Of a stretch of 36,302 nucleotides of DNA, positions 21,352 through 35,617 are shown in pieces. The notes below the pieces were generated by a model, which saw only the letters and a list, made by a program, of their open reading frames with translations, searched no databases and was not told the origin of the DNA. This DNA is from a virus: positions 1 to 36,302 of IMG/VR virus record IMGVR_UViG_3300008470_000043. One strand, given 5' to 3'. The translations under genes and the position numbers were made by a program. How positions within the stretch are numbered: the stretch's first letter is position 1; every line of letters begins with the position of its first letter.

Positions 21352-22029
21352 TTATCGGATGCACAGGTAACCAGCGCCATTCGAACTAGATATAGGTAAA
21401 AGTTTTCCGGAGTGAAAATAAACCGCCCAAGTGTTCGCCTCAGCGGTCCCCGTTTGTACAGAGGCACTTATCACAATACTCACACCAGCATACTTGACTA
21501 CCTCAGAAGTAGAAAACCAGCCGCCCGAAGTACCTTGGGAAGCCACACAACCATCACAAGTCTCGGAAGTCCAGGTTGACATAGTTGCCGTACATTCCCC
21601 ACCGGGCATGGTGGCAGGACAGCGTCGAACCAATGTTCGGAGTTCGTCGATGGTTGCTAACTCTCAATCAGACTTGCCATTGACCGTGAGACCCTCACAG
21701 TATTTTATCGCATGGTGTCGGCTGTCCATTCGCTTGTCGCCAAAACCAGCAGACCACTCATATCCGGTAGCAGAGTCTTTCCAGGTATGGTCAACAGCCG
21801 TCTCGTCATTGCCGACTTCTATGCCGACTATCGTGTCCGCATCCTGTCCCGTATCGCTTGTACTGCCGCCTCCACTGTCCAGAACATCCACCACGCTGTC
21901 ATCGGTATCGCCACAGCCAACATTGCTCCCAGTGCTATCAGGAGTATCCCCCCAAGCACATGATTCACACTCGTCAGGACTAGCACAACCGGCTACCAAT
22001 AATATCATTAGGATCGTTAGAGTCTTCAT
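21352..22029 (-). pseudogene. DUF1566/Lcl-domain lipoprotein interrupted by in-frame TGA
   Basis: ATG 22029 has GGGAGG upstream and begins a lipoprotein signal (MKTLTILMILLVAGC, with a lipobox ending at Cys). An Asp/Ser/Gly/Thr-rich linker follows. A DUF1566 (Lcl C-terminal) domain then starts at HTWKDSATGYEW and runs through AIKYCEGLTVNGKSD. There the frame meets TGA at 21666-21664 (codon 122), exactly where the family has the Trp of its WRLPT motif. The same frame then continues as ELATIDELRTLVRRC and ends with the usual WAVYF...YLCIR strand at 21352. It is therefore one gene broken by a stop, a sequence error, or a read-through case. The domain has a C-type-lectin-like fold in known proteins, so surface binding is the likely original role. 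Confidence 0.8.
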
Positions 22030-22231
22030 AGTGTCCTCCCAGACTTGGATCGCAGTAGACGTCTGGGTCTGCTGCAACATTAAAAGTTCGTTCAACCATT
22101 AGCGGAGCTTGTCCCAGGTCTTCCAGGCGATTCTCAACAGCCTTGTAGATGAAGCTCAACGCTCCCTCCACATCAACGTCGATTACTTTCTGTACCTCAG
22201 AGACAATGTTTACCATGCTACGCTTCGACAT
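21980..22231 (-). CDS. Small acidic protein, unknown
   Basis: An 83-residue protein. ATG 22231 (MSKRSMVNIVSEVQKV) is chosen because AAGGAG lies nine bases upstream; a TTG six codons earlier is possible. It has a helical N-terminal half and an Asp/Asn-rich C-terminal half with two cysteines (VYCDPS and the final Cys). It overlaps the preceding gene by 14 bases and the lipoprotein gene by 50 bases. No family recognised. Confidence 0.6.
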   Translation of the reverse strand: MSKRSMVNIVSEVQKVIDVDVEGALSFIYKAVENRLEDLGQAPLMVERTFNVAADPDVYCDPSLGGHYEDSNDPNDIIGSRLC

Positions 22232-22445
22232 GCTCCGATGCTCCTTCAAGAGTAGTAGTCGGGGTTTCCCGAACCACGGCCATTCGCATTAGCAAACCCG
22301 GCTTACTCTGTTTTATCGCAGAGTGTACCAGGTCCGCAATTATTGGGCCTTGGGCTCGTGCCATGTCTTCCAGGGATGTCCCCGGAGCGTAGTCACTTTC
22401 GTTGAGGTCATAGGTGTAAGTTATTTGGACTCGAAATTTCTTCAT
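22218..22445 (-). CDS. Small protein, unknown
   Basis: A 75-residue protein with a clear GGGAGG site before ATG 22445. It starts with a beta-strand-like MKKFRVQITYTYDLNESDY, then a helix (LEDMARAQGPIIADLVHSAIKQ) and a strand (LLMRMAVVRET). It is the first gene after the promoter at about 22.5 kb. The compact beta-alpha-beta pattern suggests a folded small domain, but I recognise no family. Confidence 0.7.
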   Translation of the reverse strand: MKKFRVQITYTYDLNESDYAPGTSLEDMARAQGPIIADLVHSAIKQSKPGLLMRMAVVRETPTTTLEGASEHVEA

Positions 22446-22483
22446 ACTCGTTCCTCCCGGTTTGAGTCATCGTCTACCATCCA

Positions 22484-22511
22484 AGAATAACACACTGAGT
22501 AGTTTTGTCAC
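22484..22511 (-). promoter_or_regulatory. Candidate promoter, phage-specific motif copy
   Basis: On the minus strand GTGACA (22511-22506), 16 bases, then TATTCT (22489-22484), preceded by TGT as an extended -10. The bases after the -35 (AAA) and the AGTGTGT in the spacer are shared with the promoter near 27.87 kb. It leads into the small gene starting at 22445. Confidence 0.5.
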
Positions 22512-22520
22512 TAACTATTT

Positions 22521-23165
22521 TTAGGAGAGGAACTTTTCTGCGGAGTCAGCAAAGATGCTGGGTACTCGTTGGTGCAAAGTACGGAGGACTTCCTTCGAAC
22601 ATGCACGGATAATCTCATGGGCAGGAGTATCACACCGAAGTCCGAAAATAGTCAACCATTCCCGTAGGTTAGCTTTAACCACCAGCTTCGTTTTCAGCCC
22701 AATCGGAAGGATAGAACGAGCAGATTGAGGAGGTACACCGAGCTTGAGTAGATTCAAATACGCTTCCTCGACGTACTGATTAGCCTGAGTCCAGACTTCC
22801 TTTGCAGCGTCGTTTTTCTCAATCGTTGGTTGCTCGATGACCGTTATCTGCGAATCGAATTTTGCTTTGGCATACGAACAATATCTGGTACTTTCTTGGG
22901 CGAAACTCGCAAGCCTATGCCTAACCTGCTCATGGGACTTACCTCGGTCACAGGAGTAGATGACGGTCGCGTCACAGAACTCCAACATCGCATGGTGACC
23001 CCGTTTATAAAGCATGGACACGAACTTTTCGGCAGAGTCCTGAGTAATCTTGTCCTCAGACCGATAACAGACCCTGCCAAAGTGTTCGAGTGCTTTCTCT
23101 ACTGAACTGAAGCCTTCTGGGATGGAGAGTCTTACCTCCTCAACCCGTGCTTTTTCAACTTTCAT
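22521..23165 (-). CDS. thyX: Flavin-dependent thymidylate synthase ThyX
   Basis: A 214-residue protein. The ThyX signature RHRX7S is present at residues 82-92 (RHRLASFAQES), followed by TRYCSYAK. The C-terminal ARSILPIGLKTKLVVKANLREWLTIF and LRCDTPAHEII are also typical. It makes dTMP from dUMP with methylenetetrahydrofolate and FAD, supplying thymidine for phage DNA synthesis. The ATG overlaps the pentapeptide-repeat gene stop by four bases (ATGA), with AAGGAG upstream. Confidence 0.95.
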   Translation of the reverse strand: MKVEKARVEEVRLSIPEGFSSVEKALEHFGRVCYRSEDKITQDSAEKFVSMLYKRGHHAMLEFCDATVIYSCDRGKSHEQVRHRLASFAQESTRYCSYAKAKFDSQITVIEQPTIEKNDAAKEVWTQANQYVEEAYLNLLKLGVPPQSARSILPIGLKTKLVVKANLREWLTIFGLRCDTPAHEIIRACSKEVLRTLHQRVPSIFADSAEKFLS

Positions 23166-23560
23166 TCTCTTCTTCTCCTTATGATTGCTCCAGGGGACTC
23201 CAGATTATGCTTTTCGATCCCCGACCATCCGTTCGCAAAATCAAATAATACGCCAAGTTCGGAATGATGCTCCTTCGGTAATACAGCGCAAAGGTGATAG
23301 GCCAATTGACGCGCTTGATTCGAATCAATGATCGCATGTAGGGAACCACAGTGTAGCGGCCAGCACGCAAAGTCTAGATTCGCGTCCTCTAGATTCGCTC
23401 TCCGTAGATCCGCGCGCTGTAGATTCGCGTTCTGTAGATTCGCATCCTGTAGATCCGCGTTCCGTAGATCCGCGTCCTCTAGATCCGCGTCCTCTAGATC
23501 CGCGTAGCGGAAATCTAGGTCACCTTTTCCGATCTTCTTTAATATCTCATCCATATTCAT
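23162..23560 (-). CDS. Pentapeptide-repeat protein
   Basis: A 132-residue protein. Residues 20-64 form nine tandem pentapeptides of the A(D/N)LXX type (ADLED, ADLED, ADLRN, ADLQD and so on), a right-handed quadrilateral beta-helix that can mimic DNA or act as a scaffold. A C-terminal 65-residue domain follows (CWPLHCGSLHAIIDSNQARQ, then YHLC), seen in other pentapeptide proteins, ending in a basic RRRRE. I chose ATG 23560 because AGAGGAG lies six bases upstream. The function is unknown. It is translationally coupled to thyX. Confidence 0.88.
   Translation of the reverse strand: MNMDEILKKIGKGDLDFRYADLEDADLEDADLRNADLQDANLQNANLQRADLRRANLEDANLDFACWPLHCGSLHAIIDSNQARQLAYHLCAVLPKEHHSELGVLFDFANGWSGIEKHNLESPGAIIRRRRE
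23369..23503 (-). repeat. Nine tandem 15-base units coding the pentapeptides
   Basis: The DNA repeats with a 15-base period, each unit close to GCGGATCTAGAGGAC on the coding strand. Adjacent units are nearly identical, so the array could change copy number by slippage. Confidence 0.85.
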
Positions 23561-23594
23561 TTTATTCTCCTCTACCTCCATCTCGATCCATACA

Positions 23595-23774
23595 TTAGCG
23601 CGCTGGTTTCTCGTCTCCTATGATCGCCCAGAACAACGCTCCCCACCAACCGATCGCCGTCCAACCAAAAAATATAGTTAGCACCGCTATCGCGCCAAAG
23701 TGCTTTTTATTTATCGCCAGATAGATCGGCAGAAAATATAAGAAGAACCCTAATATAAGCAACACAAATTCCAT
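23595..23774 (-). CDS. Superinfection-immunity-like membrane protein
   Basis: A 59-residue protein with two membrane segments (about residues 2-21 and 27-52). The pattern LYFLPIYLAINKKH, then AIAVLTIFFGWTAIGWWGALFWA matches the Imm_superinfect family (T4 Imm-like), which blocks DNA entry of later phages at the inner membrane. ATG 23774 is chosen because GAGGAG lies six bases upstream; the longer frame from 23843 overlaps the preceding gene. Family match by eye. Confidence 0.8.
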   Translation of the reverse strand: MEFVLLILGFFLYFLPIYLAINKKHFGAIAVLTIFFGWTAIGWWGALFWAIIGDEKPAR

Positions 23775-23776
23775 TT

Positions 23777-24010
23777 TTAACTCCTCTTCCCTTCTCTGTG
23801 GCGACTCATTTTGGAGTCCACTGCAAGAGGGATATATCGCCACTCCTCGATTAGCTCCATGCCCTTGGCGTACTTGTACTGGAAGCTCCAGGCATCCCCG
23901 AACAGTCGGAACATCTCTTCTCGGGTTTCATTAAGGGTACCTGCCAGTTTCACAAAGTGGCCGGCATGTGGCTGACCCACACCAAAGGTGAAGATATAGG
24001 TTTCTTCCAT
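23777..24010 (-). CDS. Small protein, unknown
   Basis: A 77-residue protein (MEETYIFTFGVGQPHAGHFV, then ETREEMFRLFGDAWSFQYKY). AAAGGAC precedes the ATG. The alpha/beta pattern and Gly-Gln-Pro-His loop recall small phage proteins of unknown role. The stop TAA lies two bases before the immunity gene's start, so both are probably translated together. Confidence 0.7.
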   Translation of the reverse strand: MEETYIFTFGVGQPHAGHFVKLAGTLNETREEMFRLFGDAWSFQYKYAKGMELIEEWRYIPLAVDSKMSRHREGKRS

Positions 24011-24022
24011 GTTGTCGTCCTT

Positions 24023-24292
24023 TCAGTCCTCGAAGGTAAGAGTGATTCTAAATTCGAACCTTTTCCAATAGTGGTGAATGCGAAGAGCAGACACCTGAAC
24101 CCTCGCTGAGAACAGGTCCTTAAAGGGCTCGTATGTTCTCCACTCATCATGCGTGACTCCGAACGCTTCTTCCCCGTCGCGGAGTCTTTTCTCTACTAGG
24201 TATACCTTCTTCTTCCGTACCGTTTTCTCGATCACGTCGGCCCATTCTCCCCCGCCTTCCTTCGAGGATTTATTCGGAAAATTAAATCTCAT
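24023..24292 (-). CDS. Small basic protein, unknown
   Basis: An 89-residue protein with a Lys/Arg-rich N-terminal half (VRKKKVYLVEKRLRDGEEAFG) and a beta-rich C-terminus (ARVQVSALRIHHYWKRFEFRITLTF). GGGAGG precedes the ATG, which overlaps the previous stop by four bases (ATGA). No family recognised. Confidence 0.68.
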   Translation of the reverse strand: MRFNFPNKSSKEGGGEWADVIEKTVRKKKVYLVEKRLRDGEEAFGVTHDEWRTYEPFKDLFSARVQVSALRIHHYWKRFEFRITLTFED

Positions 24293-24486
24293 GACGCCTC
24301 CCTATGGTTATCCATATCCCCCAGACGCTTACGACACTCTTGAATGCTCACGGTTAACCGCCTTGAATGCGGCTTCACCACGGCATTAAGGAAAGGATAT
24401 GTCTGGTCTTTCAGATGTTGATAGAGGTCGTGCACCCTAAGCAAATTAGCCAGAGTCTTCCGCCAGTTGTACGGGTCGTTCCGCAT
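24289..24486 (-). CDS. Small basic helical protein, unknown
   Basis: A 65-residue protein with two likely helices (NWRKTLANLLRVHDLYQHLKD and VSIQECRKRLGDM) and net positive charge. GGAGG lies directly before ATG 24486. It is the first gene after the promoter at about 24.54 kb. No family recognised; small basic early proteins of phages often bind host proteins or nucleic acid, which is only a possibility here. Confidence 0.68.
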   Translation of the reverse strand: MRNDPYNWRKTLANLLRVHDLYQHLKDQTYPFLNAVVKPHSRRLTVSIQECRKRLGDMDNHREAS

Positions 24487-24522
24487 TTGCCTCCAGTATG
24501 TTTGAAATCATCGAGCCAGATA

Positions 24523-24550
24523 GTTCTATCAGACAGGAGAGTTTTGTCAA
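24523..24550 (-). promoter_or_regulatory. Candidate promoter, phage-specific motif copy
   Basis: On the minus strand a perfect TTGACA (24550-24545) is followed after 16 bases by TAGAAC (24528-24523) with a TGA extended -10. It shares TTGACAAA and GTCTGATA with the promoter before hsp20. It lies 37 bases before the start of the gene at 24486 and just after the metallopeptidase-like gene. Confidence 0.5.
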
Positions 24551-24557
24551 CAACGAA

Positions 24558-25199
24558 CTACAGGCCGAGGGTTTTTAAAACAAGATGCTGATTGTGGGTA
24601 TAGTGGCGGGAAGTGCCCTGATCTAATAGGAGGTGCCCCATCTCATGCTGTACCAAAGGTCCAAAGGTCTCAAGGTACATAGGCCTCCACTCGACCTCCA
24701 CGACATTCCCATAGGCCAAACCACTGACCACTCGTCGCAGTTTACCCCACCTGAGGATTACGCTTCCTCGCCGTTTGATTCTGCAGATGATGAGCTTATC
24801 GAAAAGAAGGTTGGATGTTCGGTAGGACTCAGGAAAATCATGCTTCGCAATGCTTCGATTTATCCGAATAGCCAAGGTATCCAAAGTAGGCATAACGTCC
24901 TGACGGATGACCCTTCGCATTGGCTCCATGTCCGGATAGCCGCACTCATCAACAAACACCACCGACCGGTGGACAGCCACCACTCTCTTCCGAAGGGCCG
25001 CACGGTTGACAATGGATAACATTGCAGTCCCAGCCATGATTGACGCCAAAGCCAAAACCGATAATTCAGCAATAATTAGCCCAACCAGATGAGCTTCCCC
25101 GTATGTCCAGATAAGGCCTCCCAGTAAGAGTAGGAAAATGGAACTGCCGAGCAAAGCCCAGATAGCACGTGTAGTTGAGGGGTAAACAGTGTCAAGCAT
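24558..25199 (-). CDS. Membrane-anchored HExxH metallopeptidase-like protein
   Basis: A 213-residue protein. Two hydrophobic helices fill about residues 13-33 and 37-64, followed by a basic loop (RAALRKRVV) and a soluble domain. HEMGH at 185-189 matches the zinc-metallopeptidase HExxH motif, and HYTHNQH at 199-205 could give a third ligand. The topology suggests a cytoplasmic or periplasmic catalytic domain tethered to the inner membrane. A perfect AAGGAGG precedes ATG 25199. Its substrate is unknown; host envelope processing or proteolysis of a host factor are options. The C-terminus is only 24 residues past the motif. Confidence 0.7.
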   Translation of the reverse strand: MLDTVYPSTTRAIWALLGSSIFLLLLGGLIWTYGEAHLVGLIIAELSVLALASIMAGTAMLSIVNRAALRKRVVAVHRSVVFVDECGYPDMEPMRRVIRQDVMPTLDTLAIRINRSIAKHDFPESYRTSNLLFDKLIICRIKRRGSVILRWGKLRRVVSGLAYGNVVEVEWRPMYLETFGPLVQHEMGHLLLDQGTSRHYTHNQHLVLKTLGL

Positions 25200-25221
25200 A
25201 GGACCTCCTTATGTTATCGGG

Positions 25222-25251
25222 AGTATACCTTGGGTAAGGTGGAGATCCCAA
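25222..25251 (-). promoter_or_regulatory. Candidate promoter for the HExxH gene
   Basis: On the minus strand TTGGGA (25251-25246), 18 bases, then TATACT (25227-25222). The -10 matches five of six bases; the -35 is weak, as expected for a regulated promoter. It lies 22 bases before the start of the HExxH gene. Confidence 0.4.
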
Positions 25252-25275
25252 ATCCGTGAGGACAACGATTTTTTG

Positions 25276-25308
25276 TGTATATTCTTGCGTATATGGAGCG
25301 AATATACA
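25276..25308. promoter_or_regulatory. Candidate operator, 9-base inverted repeat
   Basis: TGTATATTC at 25276-25284 and GAATATACA at 25300-25308 are perfect inverted repeats 15 bases apart, with a related GTATAT between them. The site lies upstream of the promoter at 25222-25251 and close to the gene for a LexA-like winged-helix protein, which is the obvious candidate to bind it. Confidence 0.5.
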
Positions 25309-25309
25309 T

Positions 25310-25465
25310 TTATGGTTTTACTAGAAGAACGCGAGGCCCAAACAGATTGCCTTCGTCGACTAAGTCAGTTGCAGAATCCGAATCCGAAACATCCGAGTGG
25401 AAGAACACCCGAGCACTCCTTCCCTCGGGGAATACTATTACTTCAACTACCTGCACCTCCTTCAC
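25310..25465 (-). CDS. Possible 51-residue protein with GTG start
   Basis: A frame begins with GTG at 25465, sharing one base with the stop of the LexA-like gene (TAGTG), and ends at TAA 25312-25310. The peptide starts KEVQVVEVIVFPEGRSARVF and ends LFGPRVLLVKP, with a plausible beta pattern. The ribosome site is weak, so it depends on coupling to the gene before it. It fills most of an otherwise empty 265-base gap. Confidence 0.42.
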   Translation of the reverse strand: MKEVQVVEVIVFPEGRSARVFFHSDVSDSDSATDLVDEGNLFGPRVLLVKP

Positions 25466-25713
25466 TAGTTACTTGGCCACGCGCCAACAGTTATGTGGAC
25501 CGACATTCGTGTGGTCTTGATGCTTCGAGACTTACTTTCGTTGGGTAAAAGGTGGCCGTTGTCTTCAAGTCTACCCAACATATACCGAACAGTACCTGGT
25601 CCACGGTTCACCCGCTCGCCCAGTTCTTTCTGAGTTGGGCCGATACCATGCTCCTTCCAGAATGATTCGATGCTCTCGATATATCGCGTTTGCGTTGCTG
25701 TGGGGCCTTTCAC
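25465..25713 (-). CDS. LexA-like winged-helix DNA-binding protein without peptidase domain
   Basis: An 82-residue protein. The order TATQTRYIESIESFWKEHG, then GPTQKELGERVNRGPGTVRYML, then RLEDNGHLLPNESKSRSI matches the LexA DNA-binding domain (helix-turn-helix plus wing). It lacks the serine-peptidase half of LexA, so RecA-driven self-cleavage is not expected. The start is GTG at 25713, with GAGGAG six bases upstream and the previous stop TAG adjacent. It probably regulates phage or host promoters; the inverted repeat at 25276-25308 is a candidate target. Confidence 0.8.
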   Translation of the reverse strand: MKGPTATQTRYIESIESFWKEHGIGPTQKELGERVNRGPGTVRYMLGRLEDNGHLLPNESKSRSIKTTRMSVHITVGAWPSN

Positions 25714-26064
25714 CTACTTCTCCTCATAGAGGAACTTCACCCCTTCTAACGAAGCGATCACTTCATAGATCGACCAGTACGTACTCGCAGGCTCCCCGTC
25801 AAACTGGAAGGCGTCTGTGCCGCTTTTCCTCCGGAGTAACCCTTCTCCATCCTGCCCATCCGATCTGACCTTGACCCAGTACCACCCGTCCGGGTACTCG
25901 GGCTTATCCCGTATCTCGGGACATACCGGTGTGGGCCGTTGCTTCCAGTAAGGGATGTTCTTGGGAATAGGCCTACCTGCATACATGGTAATCATACCTG
26001 TATATTCTTTGGCTTCATTCCAAGTATCGAAATGGGCTTCTGTTTGTCGTACGGATGTTAGCAT
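25714..26064 (-). CDS. Small protein, unknown
   Basis: A 116-residue protein. It is rich in Tyr, Trp and Pro in the middle (YWKQRPTPVCPEIRDKPEYP, then DGWYWVKVRSDGQDGEG) and ends with a Tyr/Trp-rich helix and strand. The DGWYWVK piece is often seen in small phage and host proteins of unknown function. GAGGAG lies directly before the ATG. The next gene's GTG adjoins its stop. Confidence 0.7.
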   Translation of the reverse strand: MLTSVRQTEAHFDTWNEAKEYTGMITMYAGRPIPKNIPYWKQRPTPVCPEIRDKPEYPDGWYWVKVRSDGQDGEGLLRRKSGTDAFQFDGEPASTYWSIYEVIASLEGVKFLYEEK

Positions 26065-26094
26065 TATCTCCTCGTCCTTTATGTTGGTGTGAAG

Positions 26095-26448
26095 CTACTT
26101 TTTGAGGGTTATGGAGTAGATCTTTTTCAGCTCTCTGCCGTAAACCATCGCGTACCCTTGCTCATGTCGAGTATCAGAATTTACCCACTGTTCGGCATCG
26201 GCGTGGTCTGTAAATACTACTGTCTCCCCACCCCCATGTGGAATCGCCATATACTGGAACCTTGCTTCAAGCCGTTTCGTTACCTTAGCCACTACCCGTG
26301 CCTCGTAGTCTTTTGCCGAGGCCGGTCCCACTACGTGTTCCGGGGAGGCTTGCCCCAGCATTTCATCGAGCCCATCCATAGCTTCTTCCAGATCGGGATT
26401 CACCGGTTTGCGCTCACCTATTCCATATCTTATGTGGGGTTCTTTCAT
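26095..26448 (-). CDS. Small protein, unknown
   Basis: A 117-residue protein. It has a charged N-terminus (MKEPHIRYGIGERKPVNPDLE), a helical centre (KDYEARVVAKVTKRLEARFQYM) and a C-terminal alpha/beta part (ETVVFTDHADAEQWVNSD, then YAMVYGRELKKIYSITLKK). GGAAG precedes the ATG; its start follows the GHKL gene stop immediately (TGATATG), so the two are coupled. The RYGIG piece is also present near the N-terminus of the GHKL protein (KYGIG). Confidence 0.68.
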   Translation of the reverse strand: MKEPHIRYGIGERKPVNPDLEEAMDGLDEMLGQASPEHVVGPASAKDYEARVVAKVTKRLEARFQYMAIPHGGGETVVFTDHADAEQWVNSDTRHEQGYAMVYGRELKKIYSITLKK

Positions 26449-26449
26449 A

Positions 26450-27487
26450 TCACTTCCAGTCTTTTGACTTCCGAATGATCATCTCGAAGTCTGTTTTGGT
26501 CGAACCATACAGGGTTGCAGAGTGCCGTTTCATAAAGTCCTTGAGGATAGATGTGGGCTTCCTTTTCCGGGTTAGCTCGTATCTCATCTTCGAGACTTTT
26601 TTCTGCGTGGCAGGATCCTTCATCAGGAGTTTGGCTACGTGCTCAGGTGCTCGTAATCCATCTACTGTGAAGTCAGCTCTACCTGTTACTGGGTCTACCG
26701 AGGGAAGGAATGTTTTCGCCAGCTTCTTCGGCACGCTCTGGAGGTGTCGAGAATCTTTTGCTACCAGATCCTCGACGGTTGTTTCCTCCCATCCGGAGAG
26801 TATCTGACCGGCAGCCCACAGGACATCGAACTCCTTTGGGATCTTTCGATCTCGGTCTAGGGGAACGGCGTTCGGTGGAAAATCATAGGCTCTCGTTAAG
26901 CCGCTGATATTCGAGACAAAGAATCCTCCGACATAGACATCACCCGGCGTTTTATCGATCACCTTACCCGCCCAACAAGAGTAAATCGTATGCTCGGTAC
27001 CCAGCCTATTTCGGGACCAGGTCTCCCAGGCTTCCTTCGTTAATGTGAAATAAACCCGGAAGCAATAAGGCCGAGATGCTACACGAAACGCCCTCACTGA
27101 AAGACCAAAACATCTGCCCAGATAGTTATCCTCATACCAAACAGGCTTATACCCGGTCGAGCAATGTTGGATGGTCATATCGCTACCGCACCGATGCAGC
27201 ACCAGCGCAGCCATTTTCAGGCCTTCGCCATGCTGACCGATGGTGTCAGAATCGTCGCGCTTACCCGACTTTCCAATCCGAAGAAAATCTCCCGACTCCC
27301 GTGGGTTGTATTGACTGGTCAGAGTTACTGAGACTATCTCCGAATCCCGGAATTTTAGCTCTTGCTCGTATTCACCAAAATCTTTGAAATTCTGGTAGAT
27401 CTCACGTAGGGCTTCCTGTTCTCCCCAATCGGGGAGGTACTCAGCTCCTATCCCGTATTTGATGGTCCCTTTTTCCGTCCCCTGCAT
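26450..27487 (-). CDS. GHKL-superfamily ATPase
   Basis: A 345-residue protein with an N-terminal GHKL (Hsp90/MutL/histidine kinase/gyrase) ATP-binding fold. The N-box is at residues 26-36 (ALREIYQNFKD, with Glu29, Asn33 and Asp36). A G1-like FLRIGKSGK is near 69-76. The G2 box IGQHGEGLKMAAL is at 83-95. The C-terminal third is basic (SKMRYELTRKRKP). I see no histidine phosphotransfer, MutL endonuclease or Hsp90 middle domain, so it is a stand-alone ATPase of unknown role. Its ATG lies two bases after the hsp20 stop, so the pair is co-translated. Confidence 0.82.
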   Translation of the reverse strand: MQGTEKGTIKYGIGAEYLPDWGEQEALREIYQNFKDFGEYEQELKFRDSEIVSVTLTSQYNPRESGDFLRIGKSGKRDDSDTIGQHGEGLKMAALVLHRCGSDMTIQHCSTGYKPVWYEDNYLGRCFGLSVRAFRVASRPYCFRVYFTLTKEAWETWSRNRLGTEHTIYSCWAGKVIDKTPGDVYVGGFFVSNISGLTRAYDFPPNAVPLDRDRKIPKEFDVLWAAGQILSGWEETTVEDLVAKDSRHLQSVPKKLAKTFLPSVDPVTGRADFTVDGLRAPEHVAKLLMKDPATQKKVSKMRYELTRKRKPTSILKDFMKRHSATLYGSTKTDFEMIIRKSKDWK

Positions 27488-27489
27488 CC

Positions 27490-27804
27490 CTAGTTACCGT
27501 CTTTCGGATGCACCTTAACCACTCTGTCTTTTTGAACCTGTAGAGTGATGGTGATGATGCCATGCTCTACCTTTACTTGGGCATTCGCTACATCGTACTT
27601 TTTATCAACGTCGATGTCCTTGTGGATAGCCAAGTCAAAATCTTCAGTTAGTTGCTCTGGGGCTGTTGAGGATTTCTTGGCCTCGATGTAGATTTTCGAA
27701 TCCTCGCAATCGACATTCACCGTCACATCTTGGGCGCTGATTCCCGGCGCCATTAAGAAAAATTGAAGGGTGTCCAGCGTCTCGTGTTTGATTACGTTGC
27801 TCAT
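27490..27804 (-). CDS. Small heat shock protein, Hsp20/alpha-crystallin family
   Basis: A 104-residue protein. The alpha-crystallin domain is visible: LQFFLMAPGISAQDVTVNVD, then KIYIEAKKS, then VKVEHGIITITLQVQ, with the A/G-x-L-like strand at the end. The N- and C-terminal arms are very short for the family. Phage Hsp20 proteins are known from T4-like cyanophages, where they are linked to virion assembly. ATG 27804 is chosen because AGGAG lies five bases upstream. It is the first gene after a strong promoter. Confidence 0.87.
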   Translation of the reverse strand: MSNVIKHETLDTLQFFLMAPGISAQDVTVNVDCEDSKIYIEAKKSSTAPEQLTEDFDLAIHKDIDVDKKYDVANAQVKVEHGIITITLQVQKDRVVKVHPKDGN

Positions 27805-27850
27805 TTTATCTCCTGTTGTTATTTGCCAGTAACTCCCACCGACAAAAGAC

Positions 27851-27878
27851 AGCATATCAGACACACTTAATTTGTCAA
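27851..27878 (-). promoter_or_regulatory. Strong candidate promoter before hsp20
   Basis: On the minus strand a perfect TTGACA (27878-27873) is followed after 16 bases by TATGCT (27856-27851), with TGA directly before it as an extended -10. It is the best sigma70-like site in the window and lies about 46 bases before the hsp20 start. It shares TTGACAAA and GTCTGATA with the promoter near 24.54 kb. Confidence 0.65.
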
Positions 27879-27929
27879 CTATCTTTTATCTTGAGGGCGA
27901 AACCATTTTCCCGACGTTGGGGAAAAGGT

Positions 27930-28006
27930 GGTACCGACGCCTTTTTAGGAAAGTTCGGACAAGAGTGCCGGCCCACATTATTGTGGAACTCGACGACGTC
28001 GGTACC
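27930..28006 (-). other. Structured intergenic segment with perfect 10-base inverted repeat
   Basis: GGTACCGACG at 27930-27939 and CGTCGGTACC at 27997-28006 are perfect inverted repeats. Between them lie a GAGT/ACTC pair and a CCACA/TGTGG hairpin with a four-base loop (about 27973-27986), giving a three-tier stem. Another 7-base hairpin (TTTTCCC/GGGAAAA) follows at 27906-27926. The segment starts right at the 3' end of the tRNA-like gene. It may be a processing structure, a small RNA or part of a terminator, although there is no T-run. Confidence 0.5.
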
Positions 28007-28008
28007 GG

Positions 28009-28084
28009 GGCCTGGTGTAGGAATCGAACCTACTTAATTAGCACTTGTCTCGGGAGTGAAAAACAGTCCATCTGCAGACCAGGC
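28009..28084 (-). tRNA. tRNA-like gene, isotype unclear, abnormal anticodon arm
   Basis: On the minus strand a perfect 7-base-pair acceptor stem (GCCTGGT at 28084-28078 with ACCAGGC at 28016-28010) encloses a canonical T arm (GTAGG, loop TTCGATT, CCTAC). It also encloses a D arm (GCAG, loop ATGGA, CTGT) with A14, G18-G19 and A21 in place but a very short loop. The remaining 29 bases do not fold into a normal anticodon arm. The best stem is CACT/AGTG with a nine-base loop CCCGAGACA, lacking U33. CCA is not encoded and the discriminator is C. It is either a degenerate tRNA, a tRNA-like RNA, or an unusual tRNA. Confidence 0.55.
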
Positions 28085-28107
28085 TCAGCGGGTTTCCCCG
28101 TCTTTGG

Positions 28108-28572
28108 TCAGGGCAGGGCGTCGTAGATGTGTGGGTCTGCATACATTCGATATACCCTACGGGCCTTGTCCGTCAGCCAGAACTCGTCGACAAGACAGTA
28201 GCCGCCCATACTATGATTACTCCAAGGACTACAGCGTCCCCACTCGGTATAGCTCCCACCCCAAAACTTAAAGTAAGAAGGCTGATCGATCCTTCGAACA
28301 GCGAGTCCCAGGGCTTTCCCGTAAGTATTCACCCAGAGCCTTCCCTCCCATCCTGCAACGCCCATATCTAATTCTGTTATCTCGATGTTACCTGCGCAGA
28401 CTGGGGGCTCTATTTTCTTACTGGGCTTCAGCACTTCATTGCAAGGCAAACACACACTCTCGGCGAGGTCCTTTTTCTCATCTAAGATATTAATAAATAC
28501 CCAAATAAGTAGCAGCGAAGCTGCAACCGTCAAGAAACCCATTAAACATTCAAATGCGAACTTCCGACTCAT
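28108..28572 (-). CDS. Membrane-anchored protein, unknown
   Basis: A 154-residue protein. One membrane helix (about residues 8-29) is followed by an exported domain with several cysteines (VCLPCNE, PPVCAG, GRCSPW, GGYCLV) likely to form disulphides. The distal part is rich in aromatic residues and glycine (YFKFWGGSYTEWG, then DEFWLTDKARRVYRMYAD). The ATG overlaps the SGNH hydrolase stop by four bases, so the two envelope-directed products are coupled. No family recognised. Confidence 0.75.
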   Translation of the reverse strand: MSRKFAFECLMGFLTVAASLLLIWVFINILDEKKDLAESVCLPCNEVLKPSKKIEPPVCAGNIEITELDMGVAGWEGRLWVNTYGKALGLAVRRIDQPSYFKFWGGSYTEWGRCSPWSNHSMGGYCLVDEFWLTDKARRVYRMYADPHIYDALP

Positions 28573-29651
28573 TGAACCACCTCATAGATGCGACTCAATG
28601 CCTGCAAGGTCAAGAGGTTATGCAGGTTGGCACCCTTGGTTAACGTCTCATCGTTGAACACACAACTGCGGTTATATTGGAAAATAGACGGGTGCTGACT
28701 ATCACGCAATCCATGATCAATAAGCGGCCATGTTGCATCATGCAGATTTACAAATGTAACTTTTGCAACTGAACAAGCGGCCTCTAAAAATCCGCTCATC
28801 AAATTCATTTCTTCCTCGTACCCTATATGAGTAAAAGACGACAAAACGATCGGGACGATCCCCTGCTCCTCCATTACCTCCGTGATCTCCATTATGTCTT
28901 CAACTTTTTCGTGAATTCTGTATTCCTCTGTCGCCGCGTTGATTCCGTAGACGTCATTTGATCCAAACATCACGATGCCATACTGAGGATTGATCGCGTC
29001 AATTTCCTGCTGGAGCCTCGACGGTGAACCGCTCAACACGCCCGCTGCCGTTAAACCGCCGCCCTGTGCGATACTGTCCCGAGTAAAAGTTGCACCCTCT
29101 AAAAAATAATCTAACGGCTCAACAAGCTCTGGGAAACACCCTAGATCCTTGATGCCTATCCACCCATAAACCTCGTCAACATCTCCATATGGATATTCAA
29201 AATTTCCGAGATAATACGCAAGGATCCGATTCGATGTACTAATTGAATCCCCCGCGATCATAACAACATTTTCGTTCTGTTGCTGTCCATCGTTGATAAT
29301 ACCGAGAATGTGATCACTATCGATCTCAGAATGGTAATTGTAATACTCGCTGCGCACTGGGCAACCTTCTCCAACGGATCCTAAAACTTCTGTATCGGTA
29401 TCAATCTCCGTGTCTGTGTCAGGCTCCGGTCCGGTGTCCGTATCCGTATCTGGGCACCCGCTTGACTCATCGCACTCATCGCCGATCCCATCGCTATCGC
29501 AATCGCCCTGTGCTGGATTATACACGTCGGGACAATTATCAACCGGCGTACAGACCTCCGTCACGATTCCGTCACCATCCATATCTTGAGCAAAAACCGT
29601 TACCGGAACAGCTAATGCGACTAGCAATAAAATCAAAAACAACGTTCTCAT
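28569..29651 (-). CDS. Secreted SGNH/GDSL hydrolase with calcium-binding repeats
   Basis: A 360-residue protein. A signal peptide (MRTLFLILLLVALAVPVTVFAQ) is followed by thrombospondin-type-3-like repeats (DMDGDGI, then DNCPDVYNPAQGDCDSDGIGDEC) and an Asp/Thr linker (residues about 68-88). The SGNH domain shows block I VVMIAGDSIS with Ser136, block III MFGSNDVYG with Asn232, and block V DSQH with Asp317 and His320. Such enzymes hydrolyse esters, often acetyl groups on polysaccharide or peptidoglycan. ATG 29651 is chosen because AGGAGG lies a few bases upstream. Export suggests it changes the host surface during infection. Confidence 0.85.
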   Translation of the reverse strand: MRTLFLILLLVALAVPVTVFAQDMDGDGIVTEVCTPVDNCPDVYNPAQGDCDSDGIGDECDESSGCPDTDTDTGPEPDTDTEIDTDTEVLGSVGEGCPVRSEYYNYHSEIDSDHILGIINDGQQQNENVVMIAGDSISTSNRILAYYLGNFEYPYGDVDEVYGWIGIKDLGCFPELVEPLDYFLEGATFTRDSIAQGGGLTAAGVLSGSPSRLQQEIDAINPQYGIVMFGSNDVYGINAATEEYRIHEKVEDIMEITEVMEEQGIVPIVLSSFTHIGYEEEMNLMSGFLEAACSVAKVTFVNLHDATWPLIDHGLRDSQHPSIFQYNRSCVFNDETLTKGANLHNLLTLQALSRIYEVVQ

Positions 29652-29712
29652 ATTCCCTCCTATAGGAAAGTGTTGTGGGTACCGTACCATATTGCTTCGG
29701 GATACCTTATTT

Positions 29713-29829
29713 CTAGACGTAGTACTTGGTTCCCCTGTGTTGACATTTTTTCTTGACCTTATCTTTGTCGAAAAGACGCCGGAGGATCTGAGATACCTGG
29801 CCGCTGGTGTACTCTCGGTATTGTTGCAT
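29713..29829 (-). CDS. Mini winged-helix-like protein, 38 residues
   Basis: ATG 29829 follows the preceding gene's TGA by one base (TGATATG), with GGGGAG upstream. The protein (YTSGQVSQILRRLFDKDKV, then a basic wing ending RGTKYYV) looks like the recognition helix and wing of a winged-helix regulator such as BlaI or MarR, but nothing else. It could bind DNA as a dimer or be the remnant of a larger protein. Too short for most gene finders. Confidence 0.6.
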   Translation of the reverse strand: MQQYREYTSGQVSQILRRLFDKDKVKKKCQHRGTKYYV

Positions 29830-29830
29830 A

Positions 29831-30340
29831 TCACTCCCCAAAGTCTGACCCCTGGCAGTTCTCTGTTAGCTCATTAAAATACTCACGAGTCGCTTGTATC
29901 CCGCAGTCGTCACACGCGCCAGTCGTATAGCATTCGCTGCAAGCCTGACTGGCCTCGTCTACAGCGCGTTTTAGTTTCTTTGCGATTGCATCAACCCGAA
30001 CATATTCGACATCCCCGACTTCTCGTTCGACATCTGACTTGCACCATTCACGAGGAGTTCCATCTCTCCAGTAGCTAGCAATTATCCTCTCAGGCATTTC
30101 CTGGATGGGGTCATCGCATTTCGGTTTCTGCTTAAACGGAACCTGGTGTGGGGTGCTGGCATCTAGACCCAAGGGTATCCGGAACTGGGCGACCGCATGT
30201 TCGAATTCTTCGGTGGTCCAGCGAAGAACATCGGCAGCCTCTACCCGGCGAAGGTTAGGTAAAATTTCCCCGTTAGGTCCCATCAGATTCCCCGTATAAA
30301 GAACACCTTCGTCCGCATTGAATATCAGTTTGTTACTCAT
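29831..30340 (-). CDS. Protein with C-terminal Cys cluster, unknown
   Basis: A 169-residue protein with GGAGG before ATG 30340. The N-terminal part is beta-like (LIFNADEGVLYTGNLMGPNGE), the middle helical (RVDAIAKKLKRAVDEASQ). The C-terminus holds CSECYTTGACDDCG, a CX2CX5CX2C arrangement able to bind zinc. I recognise no family. Its neighbours are other small Cys-rich early genes. Confidence 0.72.
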   Translation of the reverse strand: MSNKLIFNADEGVLYTGNLMGPNGEILPNLRRVEAADVLRWTTEEFEHAVAQFRIPLGLDASTPHQVPFKQKPKCDDPIQEMPERIIASYWRDGTPREWCKSDVEREVGDVEYVRVDAIAKKLKRAVDEASQACSECYTTGACDDCGIQATREYFNELTENCQGSDFGE

Positions 30341-30357
30341 AATTCCTCCAGTTTAGG

Positions 30358-30579
30358 TTAAAACTTACCTGTTTTCTTTCGCACTACGTAACCGTCCGGT
30401 GTTTTGCAGACAGCCATTTTTGACTTGCACATTTTAACGACATATGGGTCGCATGTTCGTTCACAGCTTTCTTCTATCGCTGCGAACTGACTGGCCACTA
30501 CCATTCCTCCGACAGCTAGGAAGAACAAACATGCCCAGGCTAGCCACTCAACTGTTGTCTTAGGTAAAGGTACGCTCAT
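30358..30579 (-). CDS. Small membrane protein with exported Cys-rich tail
   Basis: A 73-residue protein. A single membrane helix (WLAWACLFFLAVGGMVVASQF) is followed by a 40-residue tail with four cysteines (ESCERTCD, then MCKSKMAVCK) and a basic end. A Rz/spanin or holin-like role cannot be excluded, but no specific motif supports it. The ATG overlaps the previous stop by four bases (ATGA). Confidence 0.7.
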   Translation of the reverse strand: MSVPLPKTTVEWLAWACLFFLAVGGMVVASQFAAIEESCERTCDPYVVKMCKSKMAVCKTPDGYVVRKKTGKF

Positions 30580-30827
30580 TTCGACCCCTTCTTTCTTAAT
30601 GAAGACCAGTCAAAGCCGAGGCCCCGGTCTATCTGTGAGGGTGTCCCCTGGCAGGAGTGAACATGTCCGTCCTCGTCGGCCAGTCTCCAAGTCGGGTTTC
30701 TTTTTGTCCCGCCTTCTACCCAGTGTAATTCTGATTCACCGCAATGTTTGCATGAAAGGTCGCCGCCATAATCATACAGGACGCCATCGGGGTCCCCATC
30801 ATTAACCATGTCAGCCATATCACCCAT
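30576..30827 (-). CDS. Small protein with CxxC motif, unknown
   Basis: An 83-residue protein. The N-terminus is acidic (MGDMADMVNDGDPDGVLYDYGGD). It has CKHCG and a later HSC that could form a zinc site (CX2C then HXC). ATG 30827 is chosen because GAGGG lies six bases upstream and the previous stop ends at 30830; the longer frame overlaps that gene. No family recognised. Confidence 0.65.
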   Translation of the reverse strand: MGDMADMVNDGDPDGVLYDYGGDLSCKHCGESELHWVEGGTKRNPTWRLADEDGHVHSCQGTPSQIDRGLGFDWSSLRKKGSK

Positions 30828-30829
30828 GA

Positions 30830-31261
30830 TCACCCTCGTTCTCTTCGACCAGCTTGTTGACCCGCTATGAAACCTAGTTGCCGAGTAATTTTCATCACCT
30901 CCGGCCACTCCTCAGCTTCCTGTGCAGAATTCCGGCGCTTTTCCAAAAGAGCGATCTGGTATTCATCCTCATAGAGAGCGGGTTGCTCAGCCAGGTAACC
31001 GGTAACCAGCATCGCGTTGTGCTTCAAGTGCTGCTCGTAAGTATCCGTTTTCACTTGTTCGGGATTACGGCGAGCGTGCTCACACAGCTCGAAATTCTCG
31101 CACTCGTTGCACAGTCTCTGCCACTCCTGCATGGTCTTCCGAGCCAGGTGCTCTTCCAAATACGTGGATAGACCGTAGCCAATATGGTGCTTAACTACGC
31201 CTACCTTCCGTCGAGTGGCTTTTTCCCTATAGCAGACGACATCAATATTAAAGCGAATCAT
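30830..31261 (-). CDS. Small protein with Cys cluster, unknown
   Basis: A 143-residue protein. ATG 31261 is chosen because GGGAGAG lies about eight bases upstream; it overlaps the previous gene by 14 bases. The first part is beta-like (MIRFNIDVVCYREKATRRKVG). Residues near 52-62 contain LCNECENFELCEH, a CX2CX6C site loosely like the mini-protein family nearby. The C-terminal half is helical and charged. No family recognised. Confidence 0.68.
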   Translation of the reverse strand: MIRFNIDVVCYREKATRRKVGVVKHHIGYGLSTYLEEHLARKTMQEWQRLCNECENFELCEHARRNPEQVKTDTYEQHLKHNAMLVTGYLAEQPALYEDEYQIALLEKRRNSAQEAEEWPEVMKITRQLGFIAGQQAGRRERG

Positions 31262-31466
31262 TTCTTTTTCTCTCCCGTGGTTGTGGATTACCCACATCTT
31301 CCCACGCAATAATTTCATCCATAATCGCGCATTTGCTGCATATCGAACGTTCATCCGGACAATGTTGCAAACAGAATTTTCTTAGCAAATTTATGACGCC
31401 ATGCTTAACCGCTCGATGTTTGTCCGGGAGGTTCCCGATGAATCTACCCATTCTGTCATCCGACAT
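31248..31466 (-). CDS. CX3C/CX2C mini-protein, family member
   Basis: A 72-residue protein carrying FCLQHCPDERSICSKCAIMDEII, a CX3CX6CX2C pattern shared with the proteins at 32553-32771, 33483-33650 and 35322-35579. The cysteines probably bind one zinc. It overlaps the Lar-like gene by 11 bases. The function of the family is unknown. Confidence 0.7.
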   Translation of the reverse strand: MSDDRMGRFIGNLPDKHRAVKHGVINLLRKFCLQHCPDERSICSKCAIMDEIIAWEDVGNPQPRERKRNDSL

Positions 31467-32004
31467 GAGGTTCGGCCTCTTCTGTTACTCGGACCAATCC
31501 GTTCCATAGGATAATCGCTTCATCCAAAGTTTCGGCGGAAGGTCCATGCAGATTGCATCCCGAGCACTCAACCCAGATAAAAGGAATCCGGTTCGCAGGT
31601 TCGGGAATCCGACCTGTCCCGAGGTGGCGCTTCGATCCACAATCCGGATTCGGACAGGCTAACGCCCTAGCTAGAGGACGGGCCAGTTTCTCCGCCTCTT
31701 CTTTATCCAGCCGGATTTTCTCTTCTTCGAGGTCTTTACGATATTCCAACTGAGTGCAAAGATTGAGAGCAGCCTTTCGAATGGCAGTGGTATCGTGGTC
31801 CAAGGCGTACCCCCGAACATTCGCCATGAAATGCCCCCCACTTATCGACGTTAAGTGGTCCATAAGTTGAATTTTTGAGAATTCGCTGGGCACTGGGCCG
31901 AGGATGACAGAAATGAGGGTGTTCCCGTCAACGTGACGCCCCTCCTTTTCCACTAAATGACTACCATCTCGGAACAAACACAATCTTATCTCGGAATATT
32001 CCAT
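31456..32004 (-). CDS. Lar-like zinc domain protein (paralogue 1)
   Basis: A 182-residue protein. The N-terminal half begins MEYSEIRLCLFRDG and contains LGPVPSEFSKIQ; a charged helix follows. The C-terminal 60 residues (ALACPNPDCGS, then WVECSGCNLHGPSAETLDEAI, then LWNGL) match the Lar restriction-alleviation pattern of two Cys pairs followed by Ala-Ile-x3-Trp-Asn. Lar proteins reduce host type I restriction, but this domain is also found in other phage proteins. The protein at 34089-34637 is a paralogue of the same length. ATG 32004 is preferred over TTG 32007. Confidence 0.72.
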   Translation of the reverse strand: MEYSEIRLCLFRDGSHLVEKEGRHVDGNTLISVILGPVPSEFSKIQLMDHLTSISGGHFMANVRGYALDHDTTAIRKAALNLCTQLEYRKDLEEEKIRLDKEEAEKLARPLARALACPNPDCGSKRHLGTGRIPEPANRIPFIWVECSGCNLHGPSAETLDEAIILWNGLVRVTEEAEPHVG

Positions 32005-32008
32005 CAAA

Positions 32009-32338
32009 CTACCACCCTTTCCGGCTGCGACTACCCCTCGAAACCAGCCAATCGATGGCGGTTAGGAGATAATCGGTAAAATGAGTCTTGGCTTTAGGTC
32101 TCTCTGAACGTTCCTCTATCAGCGTAATTTTATTGGCTAAGCCACATACCGGGCAAACCTCAGTGTTTTCGCCGTGCAATAGCTCTTGCGAATCGAAAGA
32201 AGTCCGGCAGCGAGCACAAATCACGTCGGTAAAAAGACCTGGTTGAAAACGAGGTCCACCACCTCCGTTAGATGGGCCGGTGTCCACTACTTCTCTCCGC
32301 CATGAAGAGGACCAATTGAGCAAGGGAAGGTTTGTCAT
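32009..32338 (-). CDS. Zinc-ribbon protein with LLHG motif
   Basis: A 109-residue protein. The central zinc ribbon has CARC, then SQELLHGENTEVCPVCG. The same LLHG-x4-E-x-CPxCG block is found in the protein at 34858-35325, so the two share a domain. The N-terminal part is Gly/Pro-rich and disordered; the C-terminal part is helical and basic (SRGSRSRKGW). The ATG overlaps the previous stop by four bases. Confidence 0.7.
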   Translation of the reverse strand: MTNLPLLNWSSSWRREVVDTGPSNGGGGPRFQPGLFTDVICARCRTSFDSQELLHGENTEVCPVCGLANKITLIEERSERPKAKTHFTDYLLTAIDWLVSRGSRSRKGW

Positions 32339-32556
32339 CTTTTGATCCTCGACCTAAGGTATTCCAGCATAGGGAGTTCCACGGCCACCGCCCGGACAGT
32401 CATTGAAAGGTGCTCCCCATACTTCGAAATAAATCGGAGATTCAAGGGGATGTATATTTCCGAGACCACCAAATTCTGAACATGCTCGATGATCTCGGCA
32501 TCGGTCCACTCATCCCACCGCTTGCCATATTTCTTTTCTGAATCTTCTATTTTCAT
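32335..32556 (-). CDS. Small acidic helical protein, unknown
   Basis: A 73-residue protein. It begins MKIEDSEKKYGKRWDEWTDAEI and is helical throughout, with a LEYLRSRIKR end. ATG 32556 overlaps the stop of the mini-protein before it by four bases (ATGA), and GAAGG lies upstream. A much longer frame exists but overlaps that gene. No family recognised. Confidence 0.65.
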   Translation of the reverse strand: MKIEDSEKKYGKRWDEWTDAEIIEHVQNLVVSEIYIPLNLRFISKYGEHLSMTVRAVAVELPMLEYLRSRIKR

Positions 32557-32771
32557 TTGCCACCTTCTTCCGTCTTCGCTGCCCACACACGGGAAGCCGA
32601 TAATTTCCGTATCTCCAAGTCGATCGGGCACTCGGAACAAACGCGGTTTTCTCTCTTGCAGGCATGGACACAATACGCGGCGTAATGCATGGACAGAAAT
32701 CGAGTCGATTTACCGTGCAGGATCAGAACATCGGCCTTTCTCACGTACCGTTTTTCTTCGTGGTAATTCAT
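32553..32771 (-). CDS. CX3C/CX2C mini-protein, family member
   Basis: A 72-residue protein with YCVHACKRENRVCSECPIDLEI, a CX3CX6CX2C pattern followed by Pro-Ile, as in three other proteins of this region. A basic helix precedes the site. ATG 32771 overlaps the preceding membrane-protein stop by four bases (ATGA), with GGGAG upstream. Function unknown; a zinc-stabilised fold is likely. Confidence 0.7.
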   Translation of the reverse strand: MNYHEEKRYVRKADVLILHGKSTRFLSMHYAAYCVHACKRENRVCSECPIDLEIRKLSASRVWAAKTEEGGK

Positions 32772-33022
32772 CTGTTCTCCCGCCTCCATTTATCCTGCTT
32801 TCTAGAGATAATGGCGTCACATAATCGGTCGTGGGTATCGAGCGACATGGCCACCGCCGCCAAAGCGAACGGAACTAGTGAAATGAAAAAGCGGGTGAGC
32901 GGAAAGCCTACATTGTAGGTGTTCTCGATGTAGGCGTGAGCCCAATGATTTACGACCAGACCAAAGGCCCAGAGTACTGCCACCACGATGGTCCAAGTTG
33001 TCCAAGTTATCCAAATATGCAT
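32768..33022 (-). CDS. Two-helix membrane protein
   Basis: An 84-residue protein with two membrane segments (about residues 5-28 and 43-66) and a basic cytoplasmic tail (AIISRKQDKWRREN). ATG 33022 has AGGAGG five bases upstream. Length and topology would suit a holin or superinfection-exclusion protein, but its place among early-type genes argues against a lysis role. No family recognised. Confidence 0.7.
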   Translation of the reverse strand: MHIWITWTTWTIVVAVLWAFGLVVNHWAHAYIENTYNVGFPLTRFFISLVPFALAAVAMSLDTHDRLCDAIISRKQDKWRRENR

Positions 33023-33030
33023 GAATCCTC

Positions 33031-33486
33031 CTATCTGGTGCATTTCGCATGGTGCCGAGAAGCGAAGTGGAGGTCGACTTCCAATTTACGGACCTTCTTC
33101 TCCAGCCGAGTTATCTCCGCTTTTGCCTCTCGAAGCTGGACGGAAAGAGTTTTTTTCTTCTCAGCTGAGGGACTGACCACTTCGCAAACAACCCAGACAA
33201 TCGCGTTCCGTCCAGAACGTGTTCGCCTTTTTCTACAGCTGTCTACAACCCGGCCTTCCAACACCAGCTCTCGACGTCGAGCAGTTTGAGTTTGCGATCC
33301 CAAATCGAGATGCACTTGCAGCTCATCATCGGTGCAGCCGTATTCGCCCATTTCTCCCAGCCGGCCAAACACCCTGGCGCGAAGGCTTGTCGCAATAGGG
33401 GCAATCGCGTCAGCAGCCGCTTCAGAGGTGTCGCTTTCTGCCACGTGGGGCGGTTTCCCGTCATATAAATCATAGTCAGTCATCAT
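33031..33486 (-). CDS. Winged-helix protein with C-terminal coiled coil
   Basis: A 151-residue protein. Residues of about 33-95 look like a winged helix (SLRARVFGRLGEMGEYGCTDDE, then GSQTQTARRRELVLEGRVVD, then a wing with RRTRSGRNAIVWVV). Residues of about 108-140 form a coiled coil (VQLREAKAEITRLEKKVRKLE), probably for dimerisation. The first ATG of an ATGATG pair overlaps the previous stop. It is likely a phage DNA-binding regulator. Confidence 0.78.
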   Translation of the reverse strand: MMTDYDLYDGKPPHVAESDTSEAAADAIAPIATSLRARVFGRLGEMGEYGCTDDELQVHLDLGSQTQTARRRELVLEGRVVDSCRKRRTRSGRNAIVWVVCEVVSPSAEKKKTLSVQLREAKAEITRLEKKVRKLEVDLHFASRHHAKCTR

Positions 33487-33650
33487 TTTCCTCCCCGCTT
33501 CATCTCAACCAGTCGTTTTGCGATTGGGCAGCGGTGGCAATCAAGTGTCCGATCACGCTTACAATACCAATTGCAGTGTTGGTAGAGATGGCTCCAAAGA
33601 AGAGCTTCCGCCTTTTCGACCAACATCTCTTCTTTTACATAGTCAGTCAT
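33483..33650 (-). CDS. CX3C/CX2C mini-protein, family member
   Basis: A 55-residue protein. HCNWYCKRDRTLDCHRCPIAKR gives CX3CX7CX2C followed by Pro-Ile, as in the other members of this family; the end (MKRGGK) matches the EKKRGGKG end of the member at 35322-35579. ATG 33650 has GGGAGG upstream and overlaps the previous stop by four bases. Confidence 0.72.
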   Translation of the reverse strand: MTDYVKEEMLVEKAEALLWSHLYQHCNWYCKRDRTLDCHRCPIAKRLVEMKRGGK

Positions 33651-34637: not shown

Positions 34638-34659
34638 GAATCCTCCCGAATTCGTAGGC

Positions 34660-34818
34660 CTAGCCGTATCCGCCAGGCAGGTAGCAATCGAAACAGATAG
34701 AATGCTAACCATCATATTCGCTGCCATTCACCTGTGTCAGCCGAGGCTCGTTTTCTCCTCGACCGGTTGGTTCTCCACAGATGTCACACAGTTCTGGTTT
34801 TTCTTCTTCGTCAGTCAT
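34660..34818 (-). pseudogene. Zinc-ribbon mini-gene interrupted by in-frame TAG
   Basis: ATG 34818 has GAGGA upstream and codes MTDEEEKPELCDICGEPTG and so on for 37 residues to TAG at 34707-34705. The same frame continues for 14 codons (HSICFDCYLPGGYG) to TAG at 34660. Read through, the product has CX2C and CX2C pairs, a complete four-Cys zinc ribbon of 52 residues, and its end leaves just room for the next gene's ribosome site. The gene is therefore either broken by a nonsense change or read through. Confidence 0.65.
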
Positions 34819-34857
34819 AAATCCTCAACGATTGCACTTTTTAGTGTCGATTACCGA

Positions 34858-35579: not shown

Positions 35580-35617
35580 TGAATCCTCCTGAATTCGCTT
35601 CCCCTAGTAAATGTATG

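Follow-up and report, generated by a model that had tools for sequence, protein, structure and literature searches.

An Hsp20-like protein and a GHKL ATPase are encoded as a conserved gene pair in uncultured phages

GHKL proteins, RIIA among them, are widespread in phages, and their mechanism is poorly understood (PMC7824862, PMC11879866). RIIA acts with RIIB to counter Rex immunity (PMC11879866), and it figures among the counter-defence systems listed as poorly understood (PMC7824862). The MORC/paraMORC proteins keep their ATP-binding motifs and are located in restriction-modification operons, and the S5 domain of MORC is marked by a GhXhhpXXRhl motif (PMC2292703). Small heat shock proteins with an alpha-crystallin domain are encoded by cyanophages (PMC3827213) and Hsp20 is also found in large freshwater phages (PMC7674155), in agreement with the original prediction for this locus, which took phage Hsp20 as known. 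The cyanophage protein is 18 kDa in size, has N- and C-terminal arms, and assembles into 24-60-mer cages (PMC8546028, PMC5028025).

A locus carrying both kinds of protein side by side lies in an IMG/VR virus record of 36,302 bases, analysed here at its full length and called the window. The record encodes a portal, a major head protein, a tail sheath, a tape measure, a terminase and a thymidylate synthase. The operon consists of the following elements:

27490-27804, minus strand: Hsp20-like gene; 104 aa, ATG start; predicted bare alpha-crystallin domain, N-terminal arm nearly absent
26450-27487, minus strand: GHKL ATPase gene; 345 aa, phrog_6077; GHKL domain, S5-like transducer and short helical tail
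26095-26448, minus strand: orphan ORF; 117 aa, same operon, outside the conserved unit
27851-27878, minus strand: promoter-like site of sigma70 type; TTGACA-16-TATGCT, extended -10 with TG; 47 nt upstream of the hsp20 ATG
27810-27814, minus strand: Shine-Dalgarno AGGAG of hsp20, preceding the ATG

Both genes of the pair are on the minus strand with hsp20 upstream, and the ORF coordinates confirm that hsp20 and the 345-residue GHKL gene are two bases apart, as originally predicted. The extended -10 promoter announced ahead of hsp20 is present as well, TG included. Its description as the strongest promoter holds in part: of the 17 promoter-like sites located in 22000-36302, two match the consensus best, and this site is one of them and alone of the two has the TG, but 15.0 +/- 4.0 sites are expected from shuffled sequence. 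The scan as a whole is thus not above chance, so that "strongest" refers to the consensus match only. Just upstream of the promoter we noted a divergent tRNA-like sequence (window 28009-28084, minus strand) with a 7-bp acceptor stem, GCCTGGT/ACCAGGC, and an intact T arm; it scores 21.1 bits against Rfam tRNA, under the cut-off of 29, and ARAGORN reported none. Another minus-strand gene of the window, at 28569-29834, encodes a weakly GDSL/SGNH-hydrolase-like protein, under Pfam cut-offs, in which one stretch resembles a signal peptide and another is of low complexity and rich in D/T.

The original prediction counted the gene at 26095-26448 as a third, coupled member. It does start one base past the GHKL stop, but the collections searched contain no homologue of its 117-aa product, and in relatives the genes downstream of GHKL are other ones. 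We therefore rejected this orphan as a member of the unit. A different element is a Cys-rich CxxC...CEGxxC module. In one relative (L024:5516-5995) it is fused N-terminally to the Hsp20 domain; in another (L027:6987-7199; E 5e-7) it has an ORF of its own where the GHKL gene ends. A weak counterpart (E 1) is present within a fused ORF of a further one (L016:4776-5870). This module may be a third component.

The window Hsp20-like protein has no Pfam match, PF00011 included, and the PHROG Hsp20 family reaches it at E=0.043 only. Its identity, proposed at the outset, is upheld by the profile of its relatives, by their Pfam matches and by a structural model. Searched against the PDB, the profile of the ten-member family found S. 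pombe Hsp16 (E 5e-7) and plant Hsp21 (3e-5); PF00011 matches six family members, two of them above the cut-off in the genome search and four more weakly. The AF2 model (pLDDT 83.6, built from only ten sequences) has an alpha-crystallin beta-sandwich fold. Its best structural match is the M. marinum sHsp (Z 11.9), followed closely by the HSP18.1 core (Z 11.8, rmsd 2.6 over 88 residues); the Hsp90-bound SGT1 CS domain comes behind the sHsp cores (Z 9.6). The model thus assigns an alpha-crystallin fold to the small protein. The first strand begins at residue 4 of 104 and the conserved domain at about residue 8: in model and alignment alike, there is almost no N-terminal arm for oligomerisation. 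As this arm is nearly missing and model confidence is lowest in the loop joining strands 5 and 7, the protein appears to be a bare alpha-crystallin domain. The C-termini of some family members, not all, are V-x-V or I-x-I-like (RVVKV, RIIDI).

The window GHKL protein has no Pfam match either. It belongs to phrog_6077 (E 3.6e-39, residues 8-255), a family of unknown function whose wider circle occurs in ~100 isolate phage records (Vibrio, Pseudomonas, Escherichia, Pectobacterium and others), and HATPase_c_3 matches 8 of its 85 relatives. The AlphaFold (AF2) model, of high confidence (pLDDT 93.5, 85 sequences), shows a Bergerat fold followed by a transducer. It matches Hsp90 with Z 11.8 (231-234 residues, rmsd about 5.0), MORC2 with 10.8, topoisomerase VI-B with 10.7 and GyrB with 10.1; these differences are small, so Hsp90 is not singled out. 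Taken together, family, relatives and model bear out the GHKL assignment of the original prediction. Among viral models, Foldseek returned phage family members first and then RIIA proteins (E 1e-7 to 1e-5), whose folds match over the ATPase part only. The sequence profile found MORC2 and MORC4 alone in the PDB, at best E 0.011-0.056, and the MORC2 match (E 0.011) spans just the GHKL domain. With hhalign, the alignment to HtpG had a probability of 73% over 75 columns from the wide alignment and 0.6% from the subfamily alignment. The Hsp90 C-terminal dimerisation domain is absent: the protein ends at 345 aa and the matched range stops near residue 293. PADLOC models gave no match to 16 subfamily members at E 0.1; a known anti-phage defence family is rejected on this basis. 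Elsewhere, an Omnitrophota MAG carries a 1861-aa ORF (L130:4762-10347) with a short GHKL match to the window GHKL family, at residues 353-461.

Four motifs were examined in the GHKL protein:

27380-27406, minus strand: N-box, residues 28-36 REIYQNFKD; E29, N33 and D36 invariant in 85/85 relatives
27308-27322, minus strand: degenerate G1 box, residues 56-60; Asp position at residue 58
27215-27238, minus strand: G2 box, residues 84-91 GQHGEGLK; G84, G87, E88, G89 and K91 invariant in 85/85
26846-26854, minus strand: transducer RDR motif, residues 212-214 (R212-D213-R214), invariant in 85/85

K76 and R99 are likewise invariant in all 85 relatives. The N-box fits the pattern ExxxNxxD and the G2 box GxxGxG, but the G1 box departs from DxGxG. 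The structure check, on which the original prediction had staked the GHKL pocket, therefore gave a mixed answer: the fold is there with its N-box and G2 box, but the pocket is not canonical. Residue 58, where the adenine-binding Asp of the G1 box should stand, is N in 51 relatives, S in 27, T in 6 and K in 1, D in none of the 85, and the GxG is missing as well throughout. By its sequence, the pocket is non-canonical; with the G1-box Asp absent family-wide, ATP binding is not assured, and the choice of nucleotide is possibly altered. By motif, the stretch YVGGFFV...PLDRDR resembles Hsp90 YVQRVFI...PLNVSRE (HtpG), and R214 would be the counterpart of the catalytic arginine in the Hsp90 middle-domain PLNxSRE.

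Scanning with alignments yielded 22 members of the close GHKL subfamily, the window included. As single sequences, neither the GHKL nor the Hsp20 of the window retrieved anything from IMG/VR, so alignments were needed for this neighbourhood survey, the main test of the original prediction. The pairing extends beyond the window contig: in 10 of the 22 members (the window, L014, L107, L015, L016, L017, L021, L024, L025 and L027) the gene directly upstream encodes a homologue of the window Hsp20 and has the same orientation, the remaining 12 being without Hsp20. A chance pairing limited to the window contig is rejected by this survey. At the Hsp20/GHKL junction stop and start overlap (TAATG) in four cases; the genes are a few bases apart in most others, and 118 bases apart in L016. 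Identity among paired members goes down to 29% for GHKL and to about 16-20% for Hsp20. The two identity matrices are correlated (Mantel r=0.89, p=5e-5; Spearman 0.55), a result driven largely by two clades.

PF00011 detects Hsp20 in 6 of 21 subfamily records, every time at the GHKL-adjacent place, and in none of 50 phage records with distant GHKL homologues. For the reverse search, an alignment of nine Hsp20 sequences diverged too much to be scanned with, and two tight subgroups were used instead: they retrieved six loci, all already in the GHKL-adjacent set, and no Hsp20 of this family without a GHKL neighbour. Across the GHKL loci surveyed, no gene stands directly upstream as regularly as Hsp20. 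None of the isolate loci of the wider phrog_6077 family that we examined has it, and the paired subfamily was found in uncultured phages only; blastn gave no close phage isolates of the window, and the Hsp20 of L027 has no homologue among isolates.

In the GHKL tree all ten paired members lie on one side of one branch, and the pairing label changes once. Repeated independent acquisition of Hsp20 is thus not supported; one pairing event may account for the tree, so the ten pairs should not be counted as independent of one another. Most GHKLs of the wide family lack Hsp20, which is therefore dispensable for their basic function. Positions conserved only in paired GHKLs were considered as a hint to an interface and dropped: at least one of them, the C-terminal W344, occurs in distant Hsp20-less members too, so no interface is inferred. 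Altogether, the Hsp20-GHKL pair is real, old and maintained, since its adjacency is kept despite GHKL identity as low as 29%, despite differing flanks, and with a Pfam contrast of 6/21 against 0/50.

The genes flanking the paired loci are mostly unrelated. Neighbours are common to L015, L107 and L017, and L014 has some genes in common with L015 and L017; the window and L014 have nothing in common beyond the pair and two genes, one for an HTH protein and one for an endonuclease. The operon lies outside the structural module. A GHKL was looked for, and not found, in six terminase relatives, one of them a 103,713-base record with a 74%-identical terminase (several of the six are short, and all possibly incomplete). 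The surroundings of the pair in L015, L017 and L107 are rich in tRNA genes: ARAGORN predicts several of them, along with tmRNA genes, within a few kb. From these surroundings and from the terminase relatives without GHKL, the role of the operon is likely to be early and accessory.

In the Hsp20-less sister clade, an ATP-dependent DNA ligase gene is a frequent upstream neighbour, overlapping some of the GHKL genes or lying near them (L018:4665-5993, L019:4716-6008, L026:1701-3026 and L028:3963-5270). These ligases carry an N-terminal extension that is WGR-like by eye, with no Pfam match. Another Hsp20-less member of this clade (L129:5983-7047) comes from a Mucilaginibacter genome, in which its 72,888-base contig may derive from a prophage or a phage.

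We propose, with about even confidence, that the conserved operon encodes one ATP-driven protein-remodelling machine, for which host takeover or counter-defence would be the likeliest role. That nine more uncultured phages, distantly related, carry the pair too suggests a two-protein machine in infection that is so far undescribed. The bare alpha-crystallin protein would bind the ATPase or present its clients, as p23 or the CS domain of SGT1 does for Hsp90. The GHKL dimer would cycle between open and closed states, driven by nucleotide, and its closure would hold, disarm or remodel a protein target. This action would fall early in infection, in host takeover or counter-defence, comparable to RIIA. 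Such a role seems to fit the context better than virion assembly, in view of the patchy presence of the pair, the tRNA-rich segments, the DNA-metabolism neighbours and the RIIA-like fold. Counting against the machine are the lost G1 Asp, the missing Hsp90 dimerisation domain, the Hsp20-less wide family and the ligase neighbours. A more specific version remains tentative: a minimal Hsp90-p23-like machine, in which the cycle of an ATPase without G1 Asp is governed by an armless alpha-crystallin partner, would disarm or remodel host defence proteins.

The GHKL dimer could alternatively be a MORC/MutL-like clamp around DNA of the phage or the host, with a part in its replication, repair or silencing, the Hsp20-like protein only stabilising or scaffolding the clamp. 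MORC2 and MORC4 are, after all, the only PDB families reached by profile (E 0.011-0.056), and MORC2 and topoisomerase VI-B come within about 1 Z of Hsp90. The DNA ligase gene that overlaps GHKL in the sister clade suggests that the substrate is DNA; in L014 the adjacent gene is RecA-like, and helicase, primase and polymerase genes adjoin the isolate GHKLs. However, any early phage gene commonly neighbours DNA genes, and no DNA-binding domain is recognised past the transducer. Alpha-crystallin domains are protein-binding folds, so a dedicated one favours a protein target, and we consider the DNA clamp rather unlikely.

It is no more probable, in our judgement, that the two proteins are independent general folding helpers, serving host fitness or virion assembly and neighbours by chance in one phage lineage. 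Hsp20 is common in cyanophages, where capsid maturation or host survival has been proposed for it (PMC7674155, PMC7824862), and the single origin of the pairing on the GHKL tree also speaks for this reading. Yet the pair persists amid neighbour turnover, with stop and start overlapping in four genomes; the two Hsp20 subgroups of the reverse search never occurred without GHKL; and the operon stands outside the structural module, with terminase relatives available that have no GHKL. Least probable by far is a degenerate GHKL, its fold kept for binding only, as a nucleotide sensor or decoy, and not as an active ATPase. The G1-box Asp and GxG are gone in 85/85, but the N-box Glu, Asn and Asp, the G2 glycines, K76, R99 and R212/R214 are invariant in 85/85, which is atypical after loss of catalysis.

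An alpha-crystallin partner retained across deep divergence gives a handle on GHKL mechanism, since it leads one to expect both a client protein and physical association of the two gene products. Viruses would then have their own counterpart of the Hsp90-p23 partnership, with an ATPase about half the size and a non-standard nucleotide pocket.

Among known systems, RIIA of T4-like phages has the nearest named viral fold and is likewise a GHKL ATPase in a two-gene accessory unit. RIIA is, however, about 650-1050 aa long with a large variable C-terminal part, whereas the window GHKL has 345 aa, and its partner is RIIB instead of Hsp20. In PHROGs, the window GHKL matches no RIIA family and the next two downstream genes match no known family. 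Within phrog_6077, of which the window GHKL is a member, the isolate loci examined differ from the paired subfamily in having no Hsp20 neighbour. Hsp90/HtpG provides the top structural match, with its N-domain and part of its middle domain, but the window GHKL lacks both the Hsp90 C-terminal domain and the G1 Asp. Similarly, the CS domain of SGT1, bound to Hsp90, is among the matches of the small protein (Z 9.6), which is nevertheless nearer to sHsps (Z 11.9) than to such co-chaperones. MORC/paraMORC proteins share the minimal GHKL and S5 architecture (PMC2292703), the weak MORC2 profile match and a MORC2 Z of 10.8; the window GHKL differs by its degenerate G1 box and has no restriction-modification neighbours. 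The cyanophage sHsp is represented among the matches of the small protein by the S-ShM2 structure 7ck4, but the window protein, of 104 aa, is nearly armless and stands beside a GHKL. As the original prediction supposed, no established Hsp20-GHKL pairing was found in the literature searched, the coverage of which is incomplete. Hsp20 and GHKL proteins are each already known in phages: what is new is their pairing, not the kind of protein.
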